Assembly (NCBI RefSeq): GCF_023558375.1
Contig: NZ_CP083761.1
Span: 3,032,001 to 3,096,000, forward strand
Reading direction: 5' to 3'
Source: Chroococcidiopsis sp. CCMEE 29
Lineage (GTDB): Bacteria; Cyanobacteriota; Cyanobacteriia; Cyanobacteriales; Chroococcidiopsidaceae
DNA length: 64,000 bases
In this document: positions 47,997-60,506 of the stretch, piece after piece
Layout of the letters: the number at the start of each line of letters is the position of its first letter
Numbering within the stretch: the stretch's first letter is position 1
The notes under the pieces: model-generated
The model's database searches: none
The model's input: the letters and a program-made list of their open reading frames with translations, nothing else
What the model was told of the DNA's origin: nothing
Position numbers and translations under genes: made by a program

Positions 47997-48512
47997 TTAA
48001 TCCAATGGCAGTGAGGTCGAAGTTTTGATTTCATTGAGGACAATACTGGTACGAATCCTATCCACGCCTGGGATGCGGGTGATTTTCTCGGATAGGAACT
48101 TTTCTAAGTGCTGGTGGTTAGGAACGACCACTTTCAATAAGTAGTCAAATTCACCGCTGAGATGATGGCATTCGAGAACCTCCGGCAAACCCTGCACGCG
48201 ATCGCAGAAGTTTCCGACGCACTCAGGCTGATGGTGGGCTAGGGTTACCTGTGCAAAACAAAGCAGATCTAAACCCAAAGCCTCGCGGTTAACCAAAGTA
48301 ACGTAGCGTCCGATCACACCGTTTTCTTCCAGCTTTCTCAGTCTTTTTTGCAGCCCAGGCGCTGAGAGATTAACCTGACGAGCCAATTCAGCGCTGCTCG
48401 TTCGACTATTCTCTTGTAACATGCACAGAATTTGTCGATCTATGTCATCCAACTGTTGGAGTGGCTCCGAGTTCCTCAGAGCTGGCTTCACCTTGACGTT
48501 ATTCCGTGGCAA
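47997..48512 (-). CDS. Lrp/AsnC-family transcriptional regulator
   Basis: 171 residues. The helix-turn-helix is LDDIDRQILCMLQENSRTSSAELARQVNLSAPGLQKRLRKLEENGVI (about 22-70), and the C-terminal ligand-binding domain starts around LDLLCFAQVTLAHHQ and ends with the typical HLSGEFDYLLKVVVPNHQHLEKFL. Such proteins sense amino acids. It is divergent from the eight-gene aromatic cluster across an AT-rich 323-bp region, so it is the natural candidate for its regulator, perhaps responding to tyrosine, phenylalanine or tryptophan. Confidence 0.92.
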   Translation of the reverse strand: MPRNNVKVKPALRNSEPLQQLDDIDRQILCMLQENSRTSSAELARQVNLSAPGLQKRLRKLEENGVIGRYVTLVNREALGLDLLCFAQVTLAHHQPECVGNFCDRVQGLPEVLECHHLSGEFDYLLKVVVPNHQHLEKFLSEKITRIPGVDRIRTSIVLNEIKTSTSLPLD

Positions 48513-48835
48513 CCTATCTCTCCAGCTATATTTGCTATGGTTTCTAAGGGTAGCTTAGTTGATTATATGTTCTAAATAAGTATTATTTGTTAATAATTAA
48601 TCAGTTAATAAAGCTATAAATGTTTTTTATAATCTTACTAGGGGCTATTAGTTAAAAATACAAACTAAAAGCTAGTTACTAAAAGACAGATTTGGCTCCT
48701 CAGCAAGAGGGAGTGGGGAAGTGACGTTTCTTCCTAACCGCGATCGCTGGGTAGCGGCAGGTAAGTCCTGGAAATAGCTGCGTTTAAGCTTCCCCAACTA
48801 CCCGCTGGAGAAGCTTCTAGAAAGGAGGAATCCAA
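48513..48835. other. divergent regulatory region of the aromatic cluster
   Basis: The left half (48550-48690) is very AT-rich with dyad-like TTAATAATTAATCAGTTAATAA sequences, suited to Lrp-type binding. The right half is GC-richer and contains a long hairpin-forming leader (48712-48799) before a strong AGAAAGGAGG ribosome-binding site. Confidence 0.5.
48605..48633 (+). promoter_or_regulatory. candidate promoter of the aromatic cluster
   Basis: TTAATA (48605-48610) and TATAAT (48628-48633) are separated by 17 bp. This would give a leader of about 195 nt before the first gene. Confidence 0.4.
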
Positions 48836-49939
48836 ATGAGCGACTTTTGCCCCATGAACGGATTCGACCACCTTGAGTTCTACGTCGGCAACGCCAAGCA
48901 GGCAGCACTCTTTTATTCAAAGTGTTTCGGATTCATCAATACGGCTTACAAAGGCTTAGAAACGGGCAGCCGCGAAACAGCTTCTTATGTGATGGAGCAA
49001 GGAGATCTCCGCTTTATTTTAAGTACAGGGCTGAGTCCAGACCATCCCATCTCCAAAAGTGTGCTCAAGCACGGTGACGGAATAGCCATCATTGCCCTAG
49101 AAGTAACAGATGCCGCCAGCGCTTACAAAACATCAACTAGCCGAGGTGCCATTGGAGCCATTGCTCCGACTGAAGAGGAAGACAAACACGGGATTTGGCG
49201 CTACTCTGCCATCCACGCCTACGGCGACACGTTAATTAAGTTTGTTGAGCGCACCAATTACTCAAATGTATTTGCTCCTGGCTTCGAGCCAAGGTATCAG
49301 ACTGATGCCAACAGTAATGGGGTGGGACTCAAGACCATCGATCACGTCGTCGCCAACGTTGAGCTGGGCGAGATGAACCGCTGGGTTCGATTTTTCGCCG
49401 ACACGATGGGCTTTAGCTTGTTAGTGCATTTTGACGATCAAGCAATTTCTACCGAGTACTCAGCTTTGATGTCAAAGGTAATGCAGGACAGCACTGGCAA
49501 AATCAAATTGCCAATTAACGAGCCTGCTCCAGGCAAACGAAAATCTCAGATTGATGAGTACTTGCAATACAACTACGGACCCGGAATTCAACACGTTGCC
49601 TTCGCGACTGACAACATCATCAAGTCCGTCACCCAGCTCAGGGCGGCAGGAGTCGAGTTTCTGCACGTACCGCAGATGTATTACGAGAACTTGGAGGAGT
49701 GGGTAGGAAAAATTGATCAGCCAATCGACAAGTTGGTAGAGCTGGGAATCTTGGCGGATCGGGATGAAGACGGGTATTTGCTACAAATTTTTACCCAGCC
49801 CGTGCAGGATCGACCGACGCTGTTCTTTGAGGTGATTGAGCGCCACGGGGCGGAGGGCTTCGGTGAAGGTAACTTCAAAGCCTTGTTCGAGGCGATTGAG
49901 CGCGAGCAGGCGGTACGGGGAAATCTCGTCAGCGTTTAG
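48836..49939 (+). CDS. hppD: 4-hydroxyphenylpyruvate dioxygenase
   Basis: A 367-residue non-haem Fe(II) enzyme that converts 4-hydroxyphenylpyruvate to homogentisate. Two vicinal-oxygen-chelate domains are present (GFDHLEFYVGNAKQAALFY; TIDHVVANVELGEMNRWV). The iron ligands are His170 (TIDHVV), His253 (IQHVAF) and Glu332 (FFEVIERHG). The C-terminal gate helix GFGEGNFKALFEAIEREQ is complete. A strong AGAAAGGAGG precedes the ATG. As first gene of the cluster it defines homogentisate as an intermediate, for catabolism or for prenylation by the UbiA protein. Confidence 0.95.
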   Translation: MSDFCPMNGFDHLEFYVGNAKQAALFYSKCFGFINTAYKGLETGSRETASYVMEQGDLRFILSTGLSPDHPISKSVLKHGDGIAIIALEVTDAASAYKTSTSRGAIGAIAPTEEEDKHGIWRYSAIHAYGDTLIKFVERTNYSNVFAPGFEPRYQTDANSNGVGLKTIDHVVANVELGEMNRWVRFFADTMGFSLLVHFDDQAISTEYSALMSKVMQDSTGKIKLPINEPAPGKRKSQIDEYLQYNYGPGIQHVAFATDNIIKSVTQLRAAGVEFLHVPQMYYENLEEWVGKIDQPIDKLVELGILADRDEDGYLLQIFTQPVQDRPTLFFEVIERHGAEGFGEGNFKALFEAIEREQAVRGNLVSV

Positions 49940-49953
49940 CAGCGGGGTGAAAC

Positions 49954-51138
49954 ATGACTTACTACTACAAGATGGGAACTATCCCCCACAAGCGGCACAC
50001 TCAATTTCGTCAACCCGACGGCTCTTTATATCATGAAGAGTTGATGGGAATTCATGGCTTCTCAGGTGTTCAATCCCTGCTCTACCACCTGCATCCACCC
50101 ACCCAGATTCAGAAAATTGTGCTGGAGAAAACGGTGGACTATGCCTATGAAGAACAGGGTTCCTTGCGTCACCGCCACCTGCGCACGGCGACTGTGACGG
50201 CGGGAGGTAATGCTGTAGAAGCGCGTGTTCTCCTGATGGCGAACGCAGATATCTGCATCTCAGTAGCTCAGCCTACGGAACCTATGCTTTATTGGTATCG
50301 TTTTGCTCATGGTGATGAGCTGATTTTTATCCACGAGGGGAGCGGTGTATTAGAAAGCCAGTATGGAACACTTCGCTATCGAGCAGGCGATTATTTGGTC
50401 ATTCCAGCGGGGGTACTCTGGCGTATCCTTCCCGATGCCGGAAGCGGGCAACGGATGCTGGCGATCGAGGCTTACGGGCATATTGAGCCACCAGAGCGCT
50501 ACCTTAATCGTTACGGTCAATTTCTGGAAACCGCTCCTTACAACGAACGCGACATTCGCCCGCCGGATCAGCTGATGACTCACGATGAACAAGGAGAGTT
50601 TGAGGTTCGAGTCAAAGCCCGAAACCGAATTACTAGCTACCTCTATCGCCATCATCCTCTAGATATTGTGGGATGGGATGGGCATCTCTGGCCGTTTGCA
50701 TTCAACATCGAGGACTTTGAACCGATTACGGGGCGCATCCACCAGCCCCCTCCGGTACATCAAACTTTTAGCGGTCCTGGATTTGTCGTGTGTTCCTTTG
50801 TGCCGCGACTGTTCGATTATCACCCCTTAGCGATTCCAGCCCCATATAACCATTCCAACGTCGATTCAGATGAGGTCATCTACTACGTTGAGGGGAAGTT
50901 TATGTCGCGCAAAGGAATTGAGCGGGCGTCAATTACTGTTCACCCCGGTGGCATTCCCCACGGTCCCCACCCTGGCATGTACGAGGAATCAATCGGTAAG
51001 GAACGAACTAACGAACTTGCCGTGATGGTTGACACCTTTCGCCCACTGAGGCTTACCCAGAACGCTCTGTCATTGGAGGACAAAGACTATCCATACAGTT
51101 GGTCGGCATCTAATCCGATTTTGGATTTTGGATTTTAG
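49954..51138 (+). CDS. hmgA: homogentisate 1,2-dioxygenase-family protein
   Basis: 394 residues with the double-cupin architecture of homogentisate dioxygenase. It begins YYKMGTIPHKRHTQFRQPDGSLYHEELMG and has YNHSNVDSDEVIYYVEG and VHPGGIPHGPHPG, where the iron-binding His and Glu residues lie. The sequence belongs to the shorter bacterial branch, so ring cleavage of homogentisate is likely but the substrate could be a relative. It starts 15 bp after hppD. Its last residues (NPILDFGF) and its stop codon are made by ATTTTGG repeats. Confidence 0.88.
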   Translation: MTYYYKMGTIPHKRHTQFRQPDGSLYHEELMGIHGFSGVQSLLYHLHPPTQIQKIVLEKTVDYAYEEQGSLRHRHLRTATVTAGGNAVEARVLLMANADICISVAQPTEPMLYWYRFAHGDELIFIHEGSGVLESQYGTLRYRAGDYLVIPAGVLWRILPDAGSGQRMLAIEAYGHIEPPERYLNRYGQFLETAPYNERDIRPPDQLMTHDEQGEFEVRVKARNRITSYLYRHHPLDIVGWDGHLWPFAFNIEDFEPITGRIHQPPPVHQTFSGPGFVVCSFVPRLFDYHPLAIPAPYNHSNVDSDEVIYYVEGKFMSRKGIERASITVHPGGIPHGPHPGMYEESIGKERTNELAVMVDTFRPLRLTQNALSLEDKDYPYSWSASNPILDFGF

Positions 51139-51147
51139 ATTTTGGAT
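51116..51147. repeat. ATTTTGG repeats forming the end of hmgA
   Basis: Tandem ATTTTGG/ATTTTAG units overlap the hmgA stop at 51136-51138. The same heptamers occur at 42233-42262. Confidence 0.9.
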
Positions 51148-51233
51148 CGGTAAAGGCTCACTGTTTAGAGAAATTCAAATGTAGCAGCCATAAAAGGAAA
51201 TGGTATCAAGCCATTTCACAACAGGAGTAATTT

Positions 51234-52154
51234 ATGACTCAAATTCTTGCAGCACCTCGGAGTCCGACCATTTCCTCGCGGATCGAGGAACGCTTGCGCC
51301 AGGGCGAACTGACTCAGGAGCAGGTGGACGACTTCCAAGACTTCCTCGCCGAAGTTGATCGCGAATTCTTCCAACACCGCATTATTACCAACAATGCCTA
51401 TACCCGTTGGTTTCGCGAAGGCACAGCCACAGATGAAGAACTGCGGCACTTCATCCGGCAATTCTCGGTCTTCTCCAACCAGTTTCTGATTGCCGCTCTA
51501 CAGAAAGTTATTAACTCCCCGACGCTGCAACAGTCACGTGCCAGCAGGGAGATTTTACTGAACGAGCTAGGTGTAATCTACCGCCAGCTTGGACAGCCAG
51601 TCGGGAATCGCGTTACTCAGACAGAGGAGGAAAAGGACCGGGAAGGAGATCCCGAACTTGTCAGCACCGAGGGGACGGTAGATGGCGGTGTTTGCCGTTT
51701 CCGGGCTGCCCATTTTGAATGGTTGACTGATGTGGCTGCGGGGCTGGGCCTGGACTACGCAGGTATCGGCAAGCGCAACCACGGCAGACCGACAACCTTG
51801 CACTTCTGCGATCGGTTAATCTGCCTCTACGGCAGTGACGACCCGCAGATTGCCGAGGGCGCTAGCTTTGCAGTCGAGAACTGGGCAGCATCTGGCTTCT
51901 GGCAAGAACTAGAAGATGGTCTGACCCGTATCAAGCAGACACGCTACCCGCACCTACGCTTAGCATTTTTCACCTGGCACAACCGCGTCGAGGCACAGCA
52001 CGCCGGACATACGCTGGCGGAACTTGAGGAAGTCTACTTCAACCCCGACTTTGATCGAGCCAAATTCATCCAGGGAGGTCGAGAGATCCTGGATGCGATC
52101 GCCGTTTTCTGGGACGGGCTGAACAGCGATCGCCTCAACCACATCTACACGTGA
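51234..52154 (+). CDS. haem-oxygenase-like (PqqC/TenA-fold) metalloenzyme
   Basis: 306 residues, predicted all-helical. YTRWFREGTATDEELRHFIRQFSVFSNQF, then EILLNELGVIYRQLG, AHFEWLTDVAAGLGLDY and FTWHNRVEAQHAGHTLAELEEV contain the spaced Glu and His residues typical of haem-oxygenase-like iron enzymes, including di-iron oxidases and desaturases. These proteins perform diverse oxidations, decarboxylations and N-oxygenations. Nothing identifies the substrate. It is the third gene of the cluster and has its own ACAGGAG ribosome-binding site. Confidence 0.75.
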   Translation: MTQILAAPRSPTISSRIEERLRQGELTQEQVDDFQDFLAEVDREFFQHRIITNNAYTRWFREGTATDEELRHFIRQFSVFSNQFLIAALQKVINSPTLQQSRASREILLNELGVIYRQLGQPVGNRVTQTEEEKDREGDPELVSTEGTVDGGVCRFRAAHFEWLTDVAAGLGLDYAGIGKRNHGRPTTLHFCDRLICLYGSDDPQIAEGASFAVENWAASGFWQELEDGLTRIKQTRYPHLRLAFFTWHNRVEAQHAGHTLAELEEVYFNPDFDRAKFIQGGREILDAIAVFWDGLNSDRLNHIYT

Positions 52155-52158
52155 GTAG

Positions 52159-52212
52159 GGGCGGGTTTAACCAAAAGATATCTTTTAGCAAGGATTTGAG
52201 CCAAACCCGCCC
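52159..52212 (+). promoter_or_regulatory. nested palindromes between cluster genes
   Basis: GGGCGGGTTT (52159-52168) and AAACCCGCCC (52203-52212) form a perfect 10-bp stem. Inside it, AAAAGATATCTTTT (52173-52186) is a perfect 14-bp palindrome. The structure sits between the haem-oxygenase-like and UbiA genes and could stop or adjust read-through, or be a small mobile repeat. Confidence 0.6.
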
Positions 52213-52250
52213 TTACCGTTCTTCCAGCAATCTTACCTGCGAGGTCAATT

Positions 52251-53135
52251 ATGACTAGCACTTCCTCCTCTCCCCACTCGATTGACTGGATAAGTACCAT
52301 TGGAGCCTTTGCTCACCTTTTCCGGTTGCCAGTCAGCATGCTTGCAGCTCTAGCAGGCTGTGCCACGATCTATGCCCTCAATGCTGCAACTCCACTCCAG
52401 CAATACCTGCTGACGGCAACTATCTTAATCGGTATGACCTCCGCCGCCTGCGCGATCAATGACTACTGGGATTTGGATAAAGACCGAATCGATCACTCCG
52501 ATCGACCACTGCCATCCGGTCTCCTTTCACTTCAGCAAGCTTGGTGGGCTGCTGTGATTCTGTTTGGCTGCGCGCTGAGCGCTGCCGTCCCTCTAGGGCT
52601 TTATCCCTTCATCCTGGTTACTGCCAGCACTGTTTTGCTCTGGAATTACTCGCATTTGCTAACCTACAGCGGCATTGTCGGGAATGTGGTTGTCGCCGCG
52701 ATCGTTGCCGCTCTCATTTTTCTGGGGAGTTTGGTTGCTGACCGCCCATTCGCGATGCTTTACCCAACCTGGTTTTTATTCTGCTATGCCTTGGCTAAGG
52801 AAATTATCTGGGATGTGCACGATGCCGAAGGCGATCGCAGTCAAGGGATTGTCACCGTTGCCAATCGGTGGGGAGCCCCAGTGGCTTTCTCAATCACCTG
52901 GGGATTGCTGGGTGTGTTAATGGGGTCAATTCCTGTCGCGCTTCACCTACTGCCAATGGCGCATCCCCTATTGTTTGCAGTGTTCTCCTTGGTCGCGTTG
53001 TTGAGTCTCGCGACGGCGCTAGCACGCTATCAACAGCAACCCAGTGCGATCGCTTACCAAAGGCTTGTCCTCTGGGAGCGTTTAAGTGTGGTATTCGGAG
53101 TGTTAGCACTGTTAGCGACCGCTCCACCCTTATGA
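52251..53135 (+). CDS. UbiA-family prenyltransferase
   Basis: A 294-residue integral membrane enzyme. The two Mg-diphosphate motifs are visible: AINDYWDLDKDRIDHSDRPLPSG near residue 70 and IIWDVHDAEGDRSQGIVTVA near 185. About eight membrane spans follow the family pattern. UbiA enzymes attach a prenyl chain to an aromatic or other acceptor, and in cyanobacteria homogentisate is one such acceptor. In this operon homogentisate is the obvious candidate acceptor, but the sequence does not look like the usual homogentisate phytyltransferase, so acceptor and donor are open. Confidence 0.88.
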   Translation: MTSTSSSPHSIDWISTIGAFAHLFRLPVSMLAALAGCATIYALNAATPLQQYLLTATILIGMTSAACAINDYWDLDKDRIDHSDRPLPSGLLSLQQAWWAAVILFGCALSAAVPLGLYPFILVTASTVLLWNYSHLLTYSGIVGNVVVAAIVAALIFLGSLVADRPFAMLYPTWFLFCYALAKEIIWDVHDAEGDRSQGIVTVANRWGAPVAFSITWGLLGVLMGSIPVALHLLPMAHPLLFAVFSLVALLSLATALARYQQQPSAIAYQRLVLWERLSVVFGVLALLATAPPL

Positions 53136-53161
53136 AACTGGAACGGAAAAGGAGGTAAGTA

Positions 53162-55234
53162 GTGGTGGTTAAGCAACTGTCGCTGGAACAGATTGTTAAC
53201 TGTGGTGTTGATAAGGATACCGCGATCACAATCCTACCCCAGATCAATCACTGGCTTGCTTCTTTACCTGCTGCTGAGTGCTGGCAACATCTCACCCAAC
53301 ACAGCATCAAGCCCGACCATCCCTTTCCACTGCACCAACTCCTCTACAAAATCACCTTCTCTGACTGGGACACAAGGCAGGGACCGCCTCCAGCCTGGTT
53401 TCCTTCTCAAGAACAGATACAAGCGACCAATATCGCTGCTTTAATGAATCAGTTGAATATCGCTTCTTACCCAGAACTCCATAATTGGTCGGCACAAAAT
53501 CGCTCCGAGTTCTGGGATTTAATGATTCAACGACTAGGTATTCGCTTTAGAAAAAATTACACTAAAATTGTTGAACTAGCGCAGGGAGTGGAGTCTCCCC
53601 AATGGTTGATAGGTGCGCGTTTCAACATCGCTGAAAGTTGTTTTCAAGCGCCTGAGAACGACCCTGCTATTGTCTTTCAGCCGGACAGGGGTTCGCTTTC
53701 TACCCTCACCTATGGAGAACTCCACGCCTGGACTAACCGGGTTGCCAATGGACTGGTGGACGCTGGCTTGCGTCCGGGTGATGCGATCGCGATCGCCATG
53801 CCCATGACTGCGGAATCCATAGCAATTTACCTGGGAATTATCAAAGCTGGTTGCACGGTCGTCTCGATTGCCGATAGTTTTGCTACCAGTGAAATTGCCT
53901 CACGATTGCGTATATCTAGAGCAAAGGCGATTTTTACGCAGGACTACATTCAGCGGGGTGGCAAACAGTTACCTCTTTATCCCAAAGTCGTTGATGCTAA
54001 AGCGCCTACAGCGATTGTACTGTCATGCAATTCTGCTCTATCGATTGAACTGCGCCAGGGAGATCTGAGCTGGGATAAATTCCTTAGTCCGAGCGATCAC
54101 TTTGACGCAGTTCCTGCCGATCCATCTGCTCACACCAATATCTTGTTCTCCTCAGGGACAACGGGAGAACCGAAGGCAATTCCCTGGAATCAGACTACAC
54201 CGCTCAAATGTGCAGTTGACGGACATCTACATCACGACATTCACCCTAGAGATGTAGTGGCTTGGCCAACTAATCTGGGATGGATGATGGGACCGTGGCT
54301 GATTTATGCCAGCTTGATCAATCGGGCAGTGATCGCACTTTACTATGGCGCACCGATTGAGCGGGGATTTGGTCAATTCGTTCAAGATGTCGGTGTGAAT
54401 GTGCTGGGGGTAGTACCCAGTCTGGTCAACATCTGGAAGACAAACAACTGTATGCAAGGACTAGATTGGAGCGCGATTAAAGCTTTCAGCTCGACTGGGG
54501 AGTGTTCTAATCCCCAGGATATGCTCTTTCTCATGTCCCGGGCAGGATACAAGCCGATTATCGAATACTGTGGCGGGACTGAGATTGGTGGAGGATATAT
54601 CACTGGCACGCTGGTACAGCCTGCTGCTCCTGCGATCTTCACGACCCCTGCCTTGGGACTGGACTTTGTAATTTTGGATGGCAATAGAGATCTCAGCGAC
54701 AAAGGCGAGGTGTTTATTATTCCTCCCTCAATTGGGCTTTCCACCGAATTGCTCAACTGCGATCACCAGCGGGTATATTTCGCTAATACTCCCCATCTGC
54801 CCTGCTCCTCTATTCCCCTGCGTCGCCACGGCGACCAGATGGAGCGTTTATCCAATAACTACTATCGTTCCCACGGTCGGGTAGACGACACGATGAACCT
54901 GGGTGGCATTAAGGTCAGTTCCGCCGAGATTGAACGCGTCCTTAGTACGGTAGAGGAAGTTTATGAGACTGCGGCGATCGCTGTATCTCCTGCAGCAGGA
55001 GGTCCAAGTCAGTTAATCATCTATGCAGTGGTCGCACTAGATAGGCAAGACAAAGAAGCACTCAAGACTGACCTGCAAAAGGCGATCGCCCAGCATCTAA
55101 ATCCCTTGTTCAAGATTTACGACCTCATATTCATCGATGCCTTGCCCCGCACGGCTTCCAATAAGGTTATGCGCCGCGTGTTACGCGACCAGTACCAGGC
55201 TCTTGCAATCCTTGATAAAAAAAACGAATTATGA
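53162..55234 (+). CDS. acyl-CoA synthetase (AMP-binding, acetyl/acetoacetyl-CoA synthetase-like)
   Basis: 690 residues of the adenylate-forming superfamily. Core motifs are NILFSSGTTGEPKAIPWN (P-loop), IEYCGGTEIGGGYITG (A5-like), HGDQMERLSNNYYRSHGRVDDTMNLGG (with the adenylate-binding Asp and hinge) and PRTASNKVMRR with the catalytic Lys. The long N-terminal part resembles the plant AAE17/18 and acetoacetyl-CoA synthetase group. It should activate a carboxylic acid, possibly a product of the aromatic pathway. Start GTG at 53162, behind AAAAGGAGG. The stop overlaps the next start (ATGA). Confidence 0.88.
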   Translation: MVVKQLSLEQIVNCGVDKDTAITILPQINHWLASLPAAECWQHLTQHSIKPDHPFPLHQLLYKITFSDWDTRQGPPPAWFPSQEQIQATNIAALMNQLNIASYPELHNWSAQNRSEFWDLMIQRLGIRFRKNYTKIVELAQGVESPQWLIGARFNIAESCFQAPENDPAIVFQPDRGSLSTLTYGELHAWTNRVANGLVDAGLRPGDAIAIAMPMTAESIAIYLGIIKAGCTVVSIADSFATSEIASRLRISRAKAIFTQDYIQRGGKQLPLYPKVVDAKAPTAIVLSCNSALSIELRQGDLSWDKFLSPSDHFDAVPADPSAHTNILFSSGTTGEPKAIPWNQTTPLKCAVDGHLHHDIHPRDVVAWPTNLGWMMGPWLIYASLINRAVIALYYGAPIERGFGQFVQDVGVNVLGVVPSLVNIWKTNNCMQGLDWSAIKAFSSTGECSNPQDMLFLMSRAGYKPIIEYCGGTEIGGGYITGTLVQPAAPAIFTTPALGLDFVILDGNRDLSDKGEVFIIPPSIGLSTELLNCDHQRVYFANTPHLPCSSIPLRRHGDQMERLSNNYYRSHGRVDDTMNLGGIKVSSAEIERVLSTVEEVYETAAIAVSPAAGGPSQLIIYAVVALDRQDKEALKTDLQKAIAQHLNPLFKIYDLIFIDALPRTASNKVMRRVLRDQYQALAILDKKNEL

Positions 55235-56430
55235 ATCCTCTTAACCAGAAAGAACGCATTTTAACACCCCTTAGCCTTGCGGATTACGAGGTGAGTCCAG
55301 AAGCTGGTTTTTTACCGATGCACTCTCCAGCCAAGGCTCAACTAACAGAGGTCTTTTGGCAAGTGCAACAGGCTGCTACCCTGCTACCTAAGTGGATGAC
55401 TACTGGGAAGATTCGTCAGCTAATCGAGAGTTTACCCGAAGTGGATGTGGATCGAGAAGCGTTGGACGAGAGGCAGTTGCGTCGAGCCATGCTGGTGTAT
55501 TCCTACCTAACTCATGCTTATGTCTGGAGCAAACCAACACCCGCTAAAGTGCTGCCGCGCAACATCGCTGTGCCGTTCTACCAGATTGCTCAAAAACTGG
55601 GGCGACCGCCAGTGCTGTCGTATGCGTCTTATGCTATGGATAACTGGGTGCGAATTAATGAAACCGAACCCATCGAAATCGGTAACATCCTTATATCGCA
55701 GAACTTCCTGAGCGGGCTGGATGAAGACTGGTTTATTCTCATTCACATTGAAATCGAAGCCAAAGCTGCGCCCGCAATCGCGGCAATTCCCACAATTTTA
55801 GAGGCAGTTGCTCAAGATGATATTGCTACTCTCATCAGTGCTTTAGAAGCCATTAAGGACGCTTGGATAAACATCAACACTACGATGAGTCGGATGCCAG
55901 AAGGTTGCGACCCCTATATTTACTACAATCGAGTACGCCCTTACATTCATGGTTGGAAAAACAACCAAGCACTGCCAGCAGGACTGATTTATGAAGGTGT
56001 AGAGGCTTACGGCGGAAAACCCCAGCAGTTTCGTGGTGAAACAGGAGCACAAAGCGCGATCGTCCCCACGATGGATGCCCTGTTCCATATCATCCACAGA
56101 CATGACCCCTTGCGGGAATTTCTGATAGAACTGCGGGATTATATGCCATTGAAACATCGTGCCTTCGTAGAAGAAATAGAAAGATGCTCAACGCTACGCG
56201 ATTTCGTTAAAATTCACATGGAGCGAGTACCTAAATTGCGGGATTTATATAACGATTGCGTATCCCTGATCGAAAAATTCCGTACCCAGCACTTAGAGTT
56301 TGCTGCCCGCTACATCCACAAGCAGGCTGGTAGTATCAACAACGACCCAAACGTCGGCACCGGCGGTACACCATTTATGCAATACCTGAAGAAACATCGT
56401 GATGAAAGCAGCCAGCATCTTTTGAACTAA
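55231..56430 (+). CDS. indoleamine 2,3-dioxygenase-family haem protein
   Basis: 399 residues, mostly helical. SYASYAMDNWVRIN, FLSGLDEDWFILIHIEIEAKAAPAI, YYNRVRPYIHGWKNN, FRGETGAQSAIVPTMDALF, RTQHLEFAARYI with the proposed proximal His, and the GTGGTPFMQYLK end are the pattern of the IDO superfamily. IDO opens the indole ring of tryptophan, and relatives such as PrnB do other haem chemistry on tryptophan. Its presence beside homogentisate genes is the most unusual feature of the cluster. Coupled by a 4-nt overlap to the synthetase. Confidence 0.88.
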   Translation: MNPLNQKERILTPLSLADYEVSPEAGFLPMHSPAKAQLTEVFWQVQQAATLLPKWMTTGKIRQLIESLPEVDVDREALDERQLRRAMLVYSYLTHAYVWSKPTPAKVLPRNIAVPFYQIAQKLGRPPVLSYASYAMDNWVRINETEPIEIGNILISQNFLSGLDEDWFILIHIEIEAKAAPAIAAIPTILEAVAQDDIATLISALEAIKDAWININTTMSRMPEGCDPYIYYNRVRPYIHGWKNNQALPAGLIYEGVEAYGGKPQQFRGETGAQSAIVPTMDALFHIIHRHDPLREFLIELRDYMPLKHRAFVEEIERCSTLRDFVKIHMERVPKLRDLYNDCVSLIEKFRTQHLEFAARYIHKQAGSINNDPNVGTGGTPFMQYLKKHRDESSQHLLN

Positions 56431-56455
56431 ACGCCCCTACCCCACAGGCTCAACT

Positions 56456-57466
56456 ATGCCCAAATTCAATGTGTTGGTTACTCGTCGTCTTCCTATCGCC
56501 TTCGATCAACTAAACCAGATTGCCTCGGTCGAGATCTGGCCGGAACGTCAACCACCTCCTTACAAGGTATTACTGGAAAAAATCAAGGCGATTGATGGAT
56601 TGCTGTGCCTACTTACTGACCAGATTGATCGTCAACTGCTTGAGACAGGAACATCATTGAAGGTGATTAGCCAGATGGCAGTTGGCTACGATAACGTTGA
56701 CATCCAGACTGCCAATGCACGACATCTCCCTGTAGGTCACACACCCGATGTTCTGACGAATGCCACCGCAGACTTTGCTTGGACATTGCTGATGGCAGCA
56801 GCACGGCGAGTCGTAGAGGCAGATCGGTTTGTGCGCGGCGGTCAGTGGCAGACTTGGGAACCGGACTTATTGCTGGGACCTGACATTACAGGAGCCACTC
56901 TAGGTATCGTTGGCTTAGGACGCATTGGTCAGGCAGTTGCTCGACGTGCAAAAGGGTTTGAGATGCGGATTCTATATGCAAACAAACACCAATGCGATCC
57001 AGAAGTGGAACAATCTCTGAATGCAGAGTTTGTGACGTTTGATCGCCTGCTGCAAGAATCAGATTTTGTTACGATTCATACTCCTTTGACTGAAGACACC
57101 TATCACCTTTTTAGTGAGCAGCAATTTGAGCAGATGAAGCGATCGGCAATTCTCATCAACACGGCACGGGGACCGATTGTAGATCTAGATGCTCTGTATC
57201 AAGCGCTGAAGAGTCATCAAATCGCTGCCGCAGCCATTGATGTTACCGATCCAGAACCCATTCCAACTCAGAGCTTGTTACTGACACTGGATAACCTAAT
57301 TATTACGCCCCACATTGCCAGCGCCAGTCGTCAGGCACGGGAAAAAATGGCAAGGATGGCGATCGCGAACCTGATTGCTGGACTCCAGGGCAAGCGTCTA
57401 CCGCATTGTGTTAATCCTGAAGTATATCTAATAAGCTCAGAGCGTGAAGATTGCTCGATGTCTTAG
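56456..57466 (+). CDS. D-2-hydroxyacid dehydrogenase
   Basis: 336 residues. The Rossmann motif is LGIVGLGRIGQAVARRAKG near residue 148. The catalytic set is Arg in NTARGPIVD, Glu in DVTDPEPIP, and His in ITPHIASAS. The N-terminal part (VLVTRRLPIAFDQLNQIASVEIW) and VGYDNVDIQTANARHLPVGHTPDVL match the glyoxylate/hydroxypyruvate reductase group. In the cluster it could reduce an aromatic 2-oxoacid made by the aminotransferase, such as hydroxyphenylpyruvate or indolepyruvate. That is inference from position. Confidence 0.9.
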   Translation: MPKFNVLVTRRLPIAFDQLNQIASVEIWPERQPPPYKVLLEKIKAIDGLLCLLTDQIDRQLLETGTSLKVISQMAVGYDNVDIQTANARHLPVGHTPDVLTNATADFAWTLLMAAARRVVEADRFVRGGQWQTWEPDLLLGPDITGATLGIVGLGRIGQAVARRAKGFEMRILYANKHQCDPEVEQSLNAEFVTFDRLLQESDFVTIHTPLTEDTYHLFSEQQFEQMKRSAILINTARGPIVDLDALYQALKSHQIAAAAIDVTDPEPIPTQSLLLTLDNLIITPHIASASRQAREKMARMAIANLIAGLQGKRLPHCVNPEVYLISSEREDCSMS

Positions 57467-57502
57467 AAGAACAGCATAAAACGCGCAAAACAGGTGATTC
57501 GT

Positions 57503-58675
57503 ATGCAATTTGCAGAGCGCATGAATCGTTTGGGAACTGAATCAGCTTTCGATGTCTTAGCCAAAGCAAAAAAACTAGAGGCTCAGGGCAGAGATATTAT
57601 TCATCTCGAAATTGGTCAGCCTGACTTTCAAACGCCCATAAATATTTGTGAAGCAGCATTCCGAGCGATGAAAGATGGGTATACCGGGTATGGTCCTGCT
57701 GCTGGGCTATTGCAGTTGCGCGAAGTTATCGCCGAGCATATTTCAACAACAAGAGGTATTGAAGTTCATCCAGACGAAGTTGTTGTCACGCCTGGCGCTA
57801 AACCGATCATCTTCTTCACGCTTCTAGCACTGGTTAATCAAGGAGATGAGGTGATTTATCCCGATCCAGGTTTTCCCATTTATGAATCTGTGATTAACTT
57901 TGTCGGTGCAAAAGGAATTCCCCTACCGTTACGAGAGGAAGTTGACTTTCGCTTTCATATTGATGATTTAGTTGATGCAATTTCGGAGCGGACACGCTTG
58001 TTAATTCTCAATTCTCCTCAAAATCCAACGGGCGGTCTTTTGAAGCAAGAGTTGGATGCAATTGCGGATCTGGCAAACAAGCACGACTTTTATGTTCTCT
58101 CGGATGAAATATACTCCCGCATTCTCTATGAAGGAGAGCATCAAAGTATCATCCGCTTTCCTGGCATGAAAGCACGGACAATTCTGCTTGATGGTTACTC
58201 CAAAACCTACTCGATGACTGGATGGAGATTAGGCTATGGAGTAGCTCCTCAGCCAATCGTCGATCAAATTGTGCGACTAATGATCAACTCGAATTCCTGC
58301 ACCTGTTCGTTTACTCAAATTGCCGGGATTGAGGCTTTGACGGGATCTCAAGATTTTGTTGCTCAAATGGTGTCTGAATTCAAACGGCGGCGAGATGCAG
58401 TTGTAGATGGTCTGAATGCGATCGCCGGAATCACTTGTCTCAAACCCGCAGGCGCGTTTTATGTGTTCCCTAACGTGAAGCAGATTCCCCTCTCCTGTGA
58501 GGCATTTGCCGATTATCTATTAGAGGAAGCAGGAGTTGCCCTACTCGCGGGTACATCGTTTGGAAAATTTGGCGAGGGATACTTAAGAATTTCCTATGCG
58601 AATTCTCTAGAGAATATCCAAGCAGCGTTGGAGCGAATTCAGGAGGCGGTTAGTCTCTGCATTATCGATTGTTAG
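57503..58675 (+). CDS. class I/II PLP-dependent aminotransferase
   Basis: About 390 residues, aspartate/aromatic aminotransferase type. Motifs are HLEIGQPDFQTPINI, GYTGYGPAAGLLQLREVIAEHI, NSPQNPTGGLL, VLSDEIYSRI, and the PLP-binding Lys in DGYSKTYSMTGWRLGYG; the tail FGEGYLRISYANS has the carboxylate-binding Arg. I prefer the ATG at 57503 (MQFAERMNRLG) over a GTG at 57494. As the last gene it could supply 4-hydroxyphenylpyruvate from tyrosine to the first gene, which would make the cluster self-contained. Specificity is inferred. Confidence 0.9.
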   Translation: MQFAERMNRLGTESAFDVLAKAKKLEAQGRDIIHLEIGQPDFQTPINICEAAFRAMKDGYTGYGPAAGLLQLREVIAEHISTTRGIEVHPDEVVVTPGAKPIIFFTLLALVNQGDEVIYPDPGFPIYESVINFVGAKGIPLPLREEVDFRFHIDDLVDAISERTRLLILNSPQNPTGGLLKQELDAIADLANKHDFYVLSDEIYSRILYEGEHQSIIRFPGMKARTILLDGYSKTYSMTGWRLGYGVAPQPIVDQIVRLMINSNSCTCSFTQIAGIEALTGSQDFVAQMVSEFKRRRDAVVDGLNAIAGITCLKPAGAFYVFPNVKQIPLSCEAFADYLLEEAGVALLAGTSFGKFGEGYLRISYANSLENIQAALERIQEAVSLCIIDC

Positions 58676-58736: not shown

Positions 58737-60506
58737 TTAGTACCCGATTGCAGCTCCGTCTCCGCGCGGATCGGCTCCACCAAACTTCATATTAGTTGCC
58801 TGGTCGATGAGAATTGCACCTGCATGCCCCATTGTATCTGTGTAGTTGTCCACAACTTTGACTGGATGACCTCTCTCAATCAACGCTTGAATCACAGTTG
58901 GCGGTACTCTCCCTTCAATCTTGAGGTCATTGGCGGAAGCTCCCCAGGTGCGTCCTTGCAGCCATCTTGGTGCTTCAATTGCATCTTGAACGCTAAATCC
59001 AAAATCAACAATTCGAGTCACAATTGCCGCCTGGGTTTGTGGTTGTCCCTCTCCCCCCATTGTTCCGTAGATCAAATAAGGCTTTCCATTCTTAAGTAGC
59101 ATTGCTGGATTTAAGGTATGAAAAGTTCGCTTCCCTGGTTGCAAGCGATTGACATGTTTTGGTTCTAGCGAGAAGAAACTTCCGCGATTTTGCAGCAGAA
59201 CTCCAGTATTGCCAGCAACAATTCCCGAGCCATAGTCATGGTATATACTTTGGATTAAAGATACTGCATTGCCATCTTTATCAACCACACCCAACCAAAC
59301 AGTATCCCCTTTCGGATCGAGGGCTTTCCTTTCCTTAACAGCAACTTTCATATCAATGCGAGTTGCCAGTTCTTGACCATGCTTTTTAGATAGAAGCATG
59401 TCCAGAGGGATTTTAACGAAGGCAGGATCGCTGAGATATTTATCTCGATCGACAAATGCCAGTTTGGTTGCTTCTACAATTGTGTGATAGTAATCTGCTG
59501 TTCCCTCTCCCATTTTCTTGAGATCGAAATTGTTGAGGATGTTGAGAATGCTTAAAGAAGCCATTCCTTGAGTATTGGGTGGGAAGTTGTGTGCTTTATA
59601 CTGACGGTAATCAGCTGAGATTGGCTCAACCCAATCAGCCTTGTGTTGTGCAAAATCTTTGAGAGTTAAAAGTCCTCCATTGGCTTGCAAGTCTTTAACA
59701 ATATTTTGGGCAATTTCACCTTTGTAAAACTCAGCAGCACCTTGTTGAGCAATTGCTTCTAAGGTTTGAGCAAGCTGTGGTTGTTTAAAAACTTCGCCTA
59801 CTTTGTATGACTCACCATTTGGTTTAAGGTAAGTTTGTTTGAAGCTTTGAAAACGTTGCAGAGCGCGGAGATCTTTATCTTTCTGCTCAAGACTTATATT
59901 GATATTCGTCCAATGTTCCTGGCTGGGAGTGACTGGAGTGCCATTCTTTGCATAACTGATGGCAGAGCCAAGTAGCTTGCTCCAAGGTAGACTATTTCCC
60001 ATACTCTGTTGAGCATATTTGTAGGCTTCTTCCCAACCTGAAACCACACCCGGTACTGTATTTGCTGCCAAATAACCTCTATAAGGAATTTTTTCGTAAC
60101 CTTTAGCTCGATAAAAATCAATTGTTGCTTTCTCACCTGCTCTCCCACTGGCATTTAAGGCTTTCAATTCATTAGTTTTAGCATTATAAATTAACCAAAA
60201 GTTATCCCCTCCAATGCTGTTCATATGAGGATAAACTACTGCCAATTTAGATGCAGCAGCGATGGCAGCATCAACTGCATTTCCACCTTGCTTGAGAATG
60301 TCCAAAGCTGCCTGGGAAGCTAAGTAATGAGGAGCTGTCACCATACCATTCATTGCCATTGTAGTTGGTCGGTTGGCAGCGCTGGCGGTAGAAGTTTTTG
60401 CCGGATCTAGCCTATCTGTAAATGTAGGAATAAAGACGGCTGCTAAACTGAATACACATGTCAAAGCAGTCGTTGTCACTCTTTTCCTAATTAGAGTCAT
60501 TTCCAA
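58737..60506 (-). CDS. ggt: gamma-glutamyltransferase (exported)
   Basis: 589 residues of the Ntn-hydrolase family, synthesised as a precursor that self-cleaves. A signal peptide (VTTTALTCVFSLAAVFIPTF) leads into MVTAPHYLASQAALDILKQGGNAVDAAIAA, IGGDNFWLIYNAKTNELKALN and the processing site KGDTVWLGVVDKDGNAVS, where Thr402 is the probable nucleophile. Near the end, MGGEGQPQTQ and PRWLQG are conserved. Such enzymes hydrolyse glutathione or gamma-glutamyl amides in the periplasm. It converges on the aromatic cluster without sharing its strand. An ATG at 60500 is an alternative start. Confidence 0.93.
   Translation of the reverse strand: MEMTLIRKRVTTTALTCVFSLAAVFIPTFTDRLDPAKTSTASAANRPTTMAMNGMVTAPHYLASQAALDILKQGGNAVDAAIAAASKLAVVYPHMNSIGGDNFWLIYNAKTNELKALNASGRAGEKATIDFYRAKGYEKIPYRGYLAANTVPGVVSGWEEAYKYAQQSMGNSLPWSKLLGSAISYAKNGTPVTPSQEHWTNINISLEQKDKDLRALQRFQSFKQTYLKPNGESYKVGEVFKQPQLAQTLEAIAQQGAAEFYKGEIAQNIVKDLQANGGLLTLKDFAQHKADWVEPISADYRQYKAHNFPPNTQGMASLSILNILNNFDLKKMGEGTADYYHTIVEATKLAFVDRDKYLSDPAFVKIPLDMLLSKKHGQELATRIDMKVAVKERKALDPKGDTVWLGVVDKDGNAVSLIQSIYHDYGSGIVAGNTGVLLQNRGSFFSLEPKHVNRLQPGKRTFHTLNPAMLLKNGKPYLIYGTMGGEGQPQTQAAIVTRIVDFGFSVQDAIEAPRWLQGRTWGASANDLKIEGRVPPTVIQALIERGHPVKVVDNYTDTMGHAGAILIDQATNMKFGGADPRGDGAAIGY

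Follow-up and report, generated by a model that had tools for sequence, protein, structure and literature searches.

Eight plus-strand genes of the cyanobacterium Chroococcidiopsis sp. CCMEE 29 very probably form an operon for the breakdown of amino acids, with tyrosine as the main substrate. They lie at positions 48836-58675 of a 64,000-nucleotide (nt) stretch of contig NZ_CP083761.1 (positions 3,032,001 to 3,096,000; this whole stretch is called the window), and they encode 4-hydroxyphenylpyruvate dioxygenase (HPPD), homogentisate 1,2-dioxygenase (HGO), a haem-oxygenase-like (HO-like) protein, a UbiA-family prenyltransferase, an acyl-CoA synthetase, an indoleamine 2,3-dioxygenase (IDO) homologue, a D-2-hydroxyacid dehydrogenase, and an aminotransferase (Table 1). 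An earlier note on this DNA had described these genes as closely spaced, and the open reading frames of the window bear this out: they make up one tight block, with intergenic gaps, in order, of 14, 95, 96, 26, -4, 25, and 27 nt. The useful result of the analysis is a protein family that we call c2, whose gene adjoins the gene for fumarylacetoacetase (FAH) in the same genome and which is a candidate for the maleylacetoacetate isomerase of the pathway.

Degradation of tyrosine via homogentisate is a textbook route. With the substrates that we infer for the enzymes of the operon, the aminotransferase, which probably acts on aromatic substrates, would yield 4-hydroxyphenylpyruvate, HPPD would convert this to homogentisate, and the short-form HGO would open homogentisate to maleylacetoacetate; c2 and FAH, encoded elsewhere, would isomerise maleylacetoacetate and then split it into fumarate and acetoacetate. 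Activation of the acetoacetate would fall to the acyl-CoA synthetase, probably an acetoacetate--CoA ligase, and through IDO the same regulon would attack tryptophan.

What the data show directly is the family to which each gene belongs, the linkage of the genes, and the joint occurrence of the HGO, HO-like, c2, and FAH genes. Most names given in the earlier note stand: HPPD exceeds its equivalog cut-off, and the prenyltransferase, ligase, IDO, dehydrogenase, and aminotransferase exceed their Pfam cut-offs in a family search (UbiA, AMP-binding, IDO, 2-Hacid_dh, and Aminotran_1_2). The HGO and HO-like assignments are weaker. HGO falls far below the NCBIfam TIGR01015 cut-off (52 vs. 511 bits) and is, judged by its sequence, a divergent short form. 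It shares 57% identity with plasmid genes that carry the annotation homogentisate 1,2-dioxygenase, and the solved structures related to it by sequence are homogentisate dioxygenases only (E 1e-6 to 3e-5). Its His300, Glu307, and His336 have the spacing of the ligands His298, Glu305, and His334 of Bacillus thuringiensis HmgA, a protein of 390 amino acids (aa) that, according to PMC6193087, is 24% identical to human HmgA and whose disruption causes homogentisate to be secreted. We share the view of the earlier note that HPPD, HGO, and the aminotransferase are tyrosine-degradation enzymes.

That note had also reported FAH and maleylacetoacetate isomerase as absent. This is true of the window, and no protein in the whole genome exceeds the cut-off for MaiA, the known maleylacetoacetate isomerase (best 87.7 vs. 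171 bits), but FAH is present in the genome at a distance of about 0.94 Mb from the operon (G000:C1:4029417-4030688; TIGR01266 547.5 bits, cut-off 375.3), where it overlaps by 4 nt the upstream 289-aa gene c2. MaiA is likewise missing over the cut-off from all 60 related genomes and all 119 Acidobacteriota genomes searched and, at E <= 1e-30, from all 22 genomes in a set of HGO loci taken as one genome per species (15 of the loci are cyanobacterial). The set of 60 and the set of 22 are not fully separate: G043 and G060 (locus L018) have matching sequences and are apparently the same organism, so that at least this one is in both.

Among the 60 relatives, HGO, c2, and FAH over cut-off each occur in nine genomes, always the same nine, and the HO-like gene occurs in eight of these. 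The ninth, G059, was left out of the co-occurrence count as a contaminant; its 9.7-kb contig C230 (L145:1-9710) matches a Priestia megaterium plasmid with the order hppD-c2-fahA-hisC-HGO at 97.3% identity over 7.9 kb, and is probably contamination of a cyanobacterial assembly. After its removal, all four genes are found together in 8 genomes, from five families and six genera, and none of the four is found in 51.

Matches to c2 extend well beyond these relatives. The family is present in 18/22 HGO genomes and in 18/119 Acidobacteriota genomes; in 15 of these 18 Acidobacteriota, FAH lies within the same 2.4- to 3.9-kb locus, and the other three loci contain phenylalanine hydroxylase with HGO, an HPPD-like gene, or none of the genes sought. 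Plasmids (72,556 records) gave 23 matches, 21 labelled as hypothetical proteins and 2 unannotated. The c2 gene is directly 5' of fahA in all seven annotated plasmid regions read among these matches, as well as in an unannotated Kovacikia plasmid, and in four phyla (Cyanobacteria, Acidobacteriota, Actinomycetota, and Bacillota) it adjoins fahA. A Streptomyces plasmid operon has the order HGO, c2, fahA, CoA-transferase A, CoA-transferase B, an arrangement consistent with acetoacetate being the end product and with the cyanobacterial ligase being the counterpart of the CoA-transferase.

We rejected c2 as a member of any named family, since its sequence matches none: for five c2 sequences, neither Pfam nor NCBIfam yielded a family over cut-off (best E 0.012 and 0.27) or a glutathione S-transferase (GST) match, and no hit of a PDB profile search had an E below 0.17. 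An AlphaFold2 model built from 13 sequences is a triosephosphate isomerase (TIM) barrel (predicted local distance difference test [pLDDT] 86, predicted template modelling score [pTM] 0.87). Foldseek returned weak matches only, the best (E 0.0087, template modelling score 0.33) being to a triosephosphate isomerase and not to deoxyribose-phosphate aldolase (DERA). In a VIA comparison, DERAs rank first (Z 14.0, root-mean-square deviation 3.4 over 209 residues), and no other barrel exceeds 12.1; of the fold and family comparisons made for c2, VIA alone pointed to DERA.

Seven residues, Glu110, Glu135, Lys156, Arg158, Lys188, His194, and Cys291, are invariant in 32/32 c2 sequences from five phyla (L102 was dropped from this alignment because of an internal stop in the coordinates used, and the near-duplicates L050/L129 and L132-L134 were kept). 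Lys156 and Lys188 are on the model strands 154-158 and 187-190. When a 20-row c2 alignment (L095 and L102 dropped for internal stops in the coordinates used) was compared with seven DERAs by hhalign, a single segment was aligned, with P 0.088, which is not significant; it places Lys156 and Lys188 opposite Escherichia coli Lys167 and Lys201, which we take to be the Schiff-base lysine on strand 6 and the helper lysine on strand 7 of DERA, respectively. By VIA, DERA is the nearest fold to the c2 model; c2 differs from it by its invariant Cys291 and by the lack of a sequence-family match.

We lean towards c2 being a maleylacetoacetate isomerase that works without glutathione, a role suggested by its context; its scaffold would be a TIM barrel like that of aldolases, equipped with two lysines and an invariant catalytic cysteine. 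This is the simplest reading because c2 is always beside fahA, lies between HGO and FAH in several operons, carries a set of nucleophiles, and faces no competing candidate for this step. MaiA, a zeta-class GST, performs the step proposed for c2, whereas c2 has a TIM-barrel model, an invariant cysteine, and two lysines. In the proposed mechanism, Cys291, playing the part of glutathione in MaiA, would form a reversible adduct at the double bond of maleylacetoacetate, and Lys156 and Lys188 would assist while the bond rotates to give the fumaryl form. An isomerase of this kind is not named in the papers that we found by text search, a search by sequence not being possible there. The hppD-fahA-hmgA operon of the Bacillus cereus group shares the short HGO type, and two papers on it state that the maleylacetoacetate isomerase gene could not be identified (PMC6193087, PMC4457819).

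Several observations weigh against this assignment or against the tyrosine operon as a whole. In this genome c2 and FAH are outside the operon, and GSTs with a weak match to the MaiA model are found in 60/60 relatives, with 9 in this genome, so another GST could be the isomerase. One rival candidate is a GST gene located 541 nt after HGO in Nostoc desertorum (L025:11699-12310), in the slot that the HO-like gene occupies elsewhere. The eight genomes with all four genes are related, so that 8/60 does not represent eight independent events, and 13 of the 18 c2 occurrences in HGO genomes are the query's own rows, leaving 5 new. Neither c2 nor MaiA has a match at the thresholds used in 4/22 HGO genomes (G069, G076, G079, and G080: a Pseudanabaenales metagenome-assembled genome [MAG], an Anaerolinea MAG, and two small Neomarinimicrobiota MAGs). 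The score of the acyl-CoA synthetase falls short of the acetoacetate-ligase cut-off, and among solved structures this enzyme is closer to acetate ligases, one of which is its closest solved relative. Finally, the B. thuringiensis operon is reported in PMC6193087 as hppD, fahA, and hmgA only, with c2 not named there, so that c2 would not be universal.

The plentiful GSTs and the Nostoc gene also bear on a possible but less probable alternative, in which the block degrades tyrosine and the isomerase is some other enzyme that depends on a thiol (a GST that has diverged or, for Actinobacteria, a protein of the maleylpyruvate isomerase type that uses mycothiol), with c2 doing something else in the pathway. 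Proteins annotated with a maleylpyruvate isomerase N-terminal domain do occur less than 5 kb from c2 in 3/7 annotated plasmid regions. However, no GST linked to the block was found in other loci as labelled (GST neighbours were not searched systematically), and the neighbour of fahA in each of the four phyla named above is c2 and not a GST.

FAH-family enzymes are versatile, and this versatility would also suit an improbable scheme in which direct hydrolysis turns maleylacetoacetate into maleate and acetoacetate, c2 then handling maleate or assisting FAH. A hydrolase of this type is named for some Bacillus species by a report cited in PMC4457819, but the FAH linked to c2 exceeds the fumarylacetoacetase equivalog cut-off (547.7 vs. 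375.3 bits), which speaks against the scheme.

The inference of the earlier note, an undescribed metabolite or quinone pathway, rested on the absence of FAH and the isomerase and is not supported, since the genome does contain FAH, with a candidate isomerase beside it. In its fullest form this inference describes a biosynthetic cluster in which UbiA prenylates homogentisate, the HO-like and IDO-like oxygenases modify the product, and the ligase activates an acyl unit, giving a new quinone or meroterpenoid. UbiA does keep both Asp-rich motifs (residues 70-79 and 188-195), and it lies inside the block here, in three genomes of the same family, and in L032; the HO-like fold includes the natural-product enzymes BesC, AetD, and PolF, and an HO-like homologue outside the HGO context lies beside a 2-oxoglutarate-Fe (2OG-Fe) dioxygenase in Gloeothece. 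Yet HGO would destroy homogentisate, and FAH and c2 co-occur with the block. UbiA is found in just 1/22 loci and 4/60 relatives, all of one family, and it scores 43.5 bits against the homogentisate phytyltransferase model NF009525, far below the cut-off of 226. IDO is also optional, present in 3 of the 15 cyanobacterial loci, and occurs in pieces in cyanobacterium PCC 7702 (L030:14340-15519) and as a fragment in G041 (G041:C60:2873-3341), which suggests that it is dispensable. With FAH and a candidate isomerase in the genome and both UbiA and IDO optional, we rejected a product pathway as the main interpretation and judge it distinctly improbable, in favor of tyrosine catabolism. UbiA and the HO-like enzyme may nevertheless make a product between them.

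Conservation of gene order, which the earlier note had proposed as a check, is limited: the full eight-gene order recurs only in Leptolyngbya sp. FACHB-8 (L032; 1/22 loci), where c2 and FAH are divergent upstream, and the three same-family genomes keep six of the eight genes (HPPD-HGO-HO-UbiA-ligase-dehydrogenase), without IDO and aminotransferase. Across the 15 cyanobacterial loci, HPPD is present in 15, the HO-like gene in 13, c2 in 11, FAH and the ligase in 10 each, the aminotransferase in 3 (homologues with 77-80% identity), and UbiA and the dehydrogenase in 1 each. UbiA occupies a slot that is filled by different genes in different lineages. In other species the region 3' of the HO-like gene contains L-serine ammonia-lyase (L018); threonine ammonia-lyase, glycine C-acetyltransferase, and an epimerase-type dehydrogenase (L021, L022, and L024); threonine ammonia-lyase alone (L023); or a thiolase (L028 and L031). 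All of these neighbours except the dehydrogenase exceed an NCBIfam cut-off in the representative tested, the thiolase at the subfamily level. In two acidobacterial loci, HGO is followed by phenylalanine 4-monooxygenase (over its curated cut-off) and then c2. The neighbourhoods are a landscape of amino-acid breakdown.

Two further arrangements were observed. Downstream of the complete threonine ammonia-lyase gene in L022 lies a second, partial copy of its C terminus, 97% identical (L022:13157-13537). The Neomarinimicrobiota MAGs L037 (7784-13915) and L038 carry a run of genes for an aminotransferase, HPPD, an HGO of 47% identity, a flavin-reductase-like protein, and an acyl-CoA synthetase; neither c2 nor MaiA was found in these small assemblies.

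The HO-like gene is present in the same 8/60 relatives as native HGO and belongs with the pathway in cyanobacteria. Its Pfam match is below the gathering score (PF14518, 22.7 vs. 28.9 bits), and a PDB profile search gave no significant sequence match. Its model matches the haem-oxygenase-like fold at low confidence (pLDDT 63, with four of the five models at about 40), and E111, H160, E215, H249, E253, and H256 are conserved, a set that we take to be the ligand-like pattern of haem-oxygenase-like diiron oxygenases. The predicted fold would thus be shared with CADD, BesC, UndA, and PolF, from which the HO-like protein differs in lacking a significant sequence match in the PDB. It is likeliest an amino-acid oxygenase of some kind. 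There is a slim chance that it feeds phenylalanine into the same route, an idea that comes from its position after HGO in cyanobacteria, the slot of phenylalanine hydroxylase in the two acidobacterial loci. A homologue with 69.5% identity on the Gloeothece verrucosa PCC 7822 plasmid Cy782201 (L150:10001-12896) is followed by the 2OG-Fe dioxygenase and then by a cysteine-desulfurase-like gene, which may be a clue to HO-like chemistry. This plasmid, the only part of that genome examined, has no HGO, which counts against a strict tie between the HO-like gene and the pathway.

The operon would be under the control of the divergent Lrp/AsnC-family regulator, whose product probably senses an amino acid. 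In line with the Lrp-type control proposed in the earlier note, a gene of the Lrp type accompanies the block in 4/15 cyanobacterial and 2/2 acidobacterial loci, with the homologue about 3 kb or less upstream of HPPD (L018, L019, L020, L026, L035, and L036). The intergenic region contains a promoter-like TTAATA-17-TATAAT at 48605-48633; the scan found 8 sites in total vs. 11.8 in shuffles, that is, fewer, and lends no support for its function. Elsewhere, the known regulators of the homogentisate pathway are local and belong to the IclR, LysR, MarR, and TyrR families, as described in PMC5343134. Compared with the homogentisate (hmgABC/hpd) pathway of, for example, Pseudomonas putida, this genome shares HPPD and, counted over the whole genome, a putative HGO and fumarylacetoacetase but has HGO in the short form, no MaiA over cut-off, and an Lrp-type gene beside the operon, with the HO-like, UbiA, IDO, ligase, and dehydrogenase genes as extras. 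A gamma-glutamyltransferase gene on the minus strand (window 58737-60506) is convergent on the 3' end of the operon.

Table 1. Features of the proposed operon and its upstream region, with positions in the window
Feature	Position	Strand	Basis or remark
Lrp/AsnC-family regulator, divergent from operon	47997..48512	-	Pfam AsnC_trans_reg 87 bits, over cut-off
Intergenic region, 323 nt, presumed control region	48513..48835	.	Between Lrp gene and HPPD
4-Hydroxyphenylpyruvate dioxygenase (HPPD)	48836..49939	+	TIGR01263 429 bits, cut-off 277 (NCBIfam equivalog)
Short-form homogentisate 1,2-dioxygenase (HGO)	49954..51138	+	Pfam HgmA_N 31.4 bits, cut-off 20.2
Haem-oxygenase-like (CADD/BesC-type fold) putative non-haem diiron oxygenase	51234..52154	+	Weak Pfam PF14518
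UbiA-family prenyltransferase, optional member	52251..53135	+	Pfam UbiA 117 bits; best solved relative DGGGP synthase
Acyl-CoA synthetase	53162..55234	+	Best NCBIfam model acetoacetate--CoA ligase 249.8 bits, under cut-off 639; acetate ligase 226
Indoleamine 2,3-dioxygenase (IDO) homologue, optional member	55231..56430	+	Pfam IDO 334 bits, cut-off 26; YMPxxHR and GAQS motifs
D-2-Hydroxyacid dehydrogenase (glyoxylate-reductase-like)	56456..57466	+	Pfam 2-Hacid_dh_C 216 bits; best solved relatives glyoxylate reductases
Class I aminotransferase	57494..58675	+	Pfam Aminotran_1_2 238 bits

A family that has no name in Pfam or NCBIfam and lies beside fumarylacetoacetase in several phyla makes the gap at the isomerase step testable with one purified enzyme. 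If c2 is the isomerase, it would fill a step of the tyrosine route left without an identified gene in Cyanobacteria, Acidobacteriota, Planctomycetota, many Actinomycetota, and some Bacillota, and would correct the reading of many operons in which its gene is called hypothetical. It would also mean that some cyanobacterial lineages can use aromatic amino acids as a source of carbon and nitrogen.

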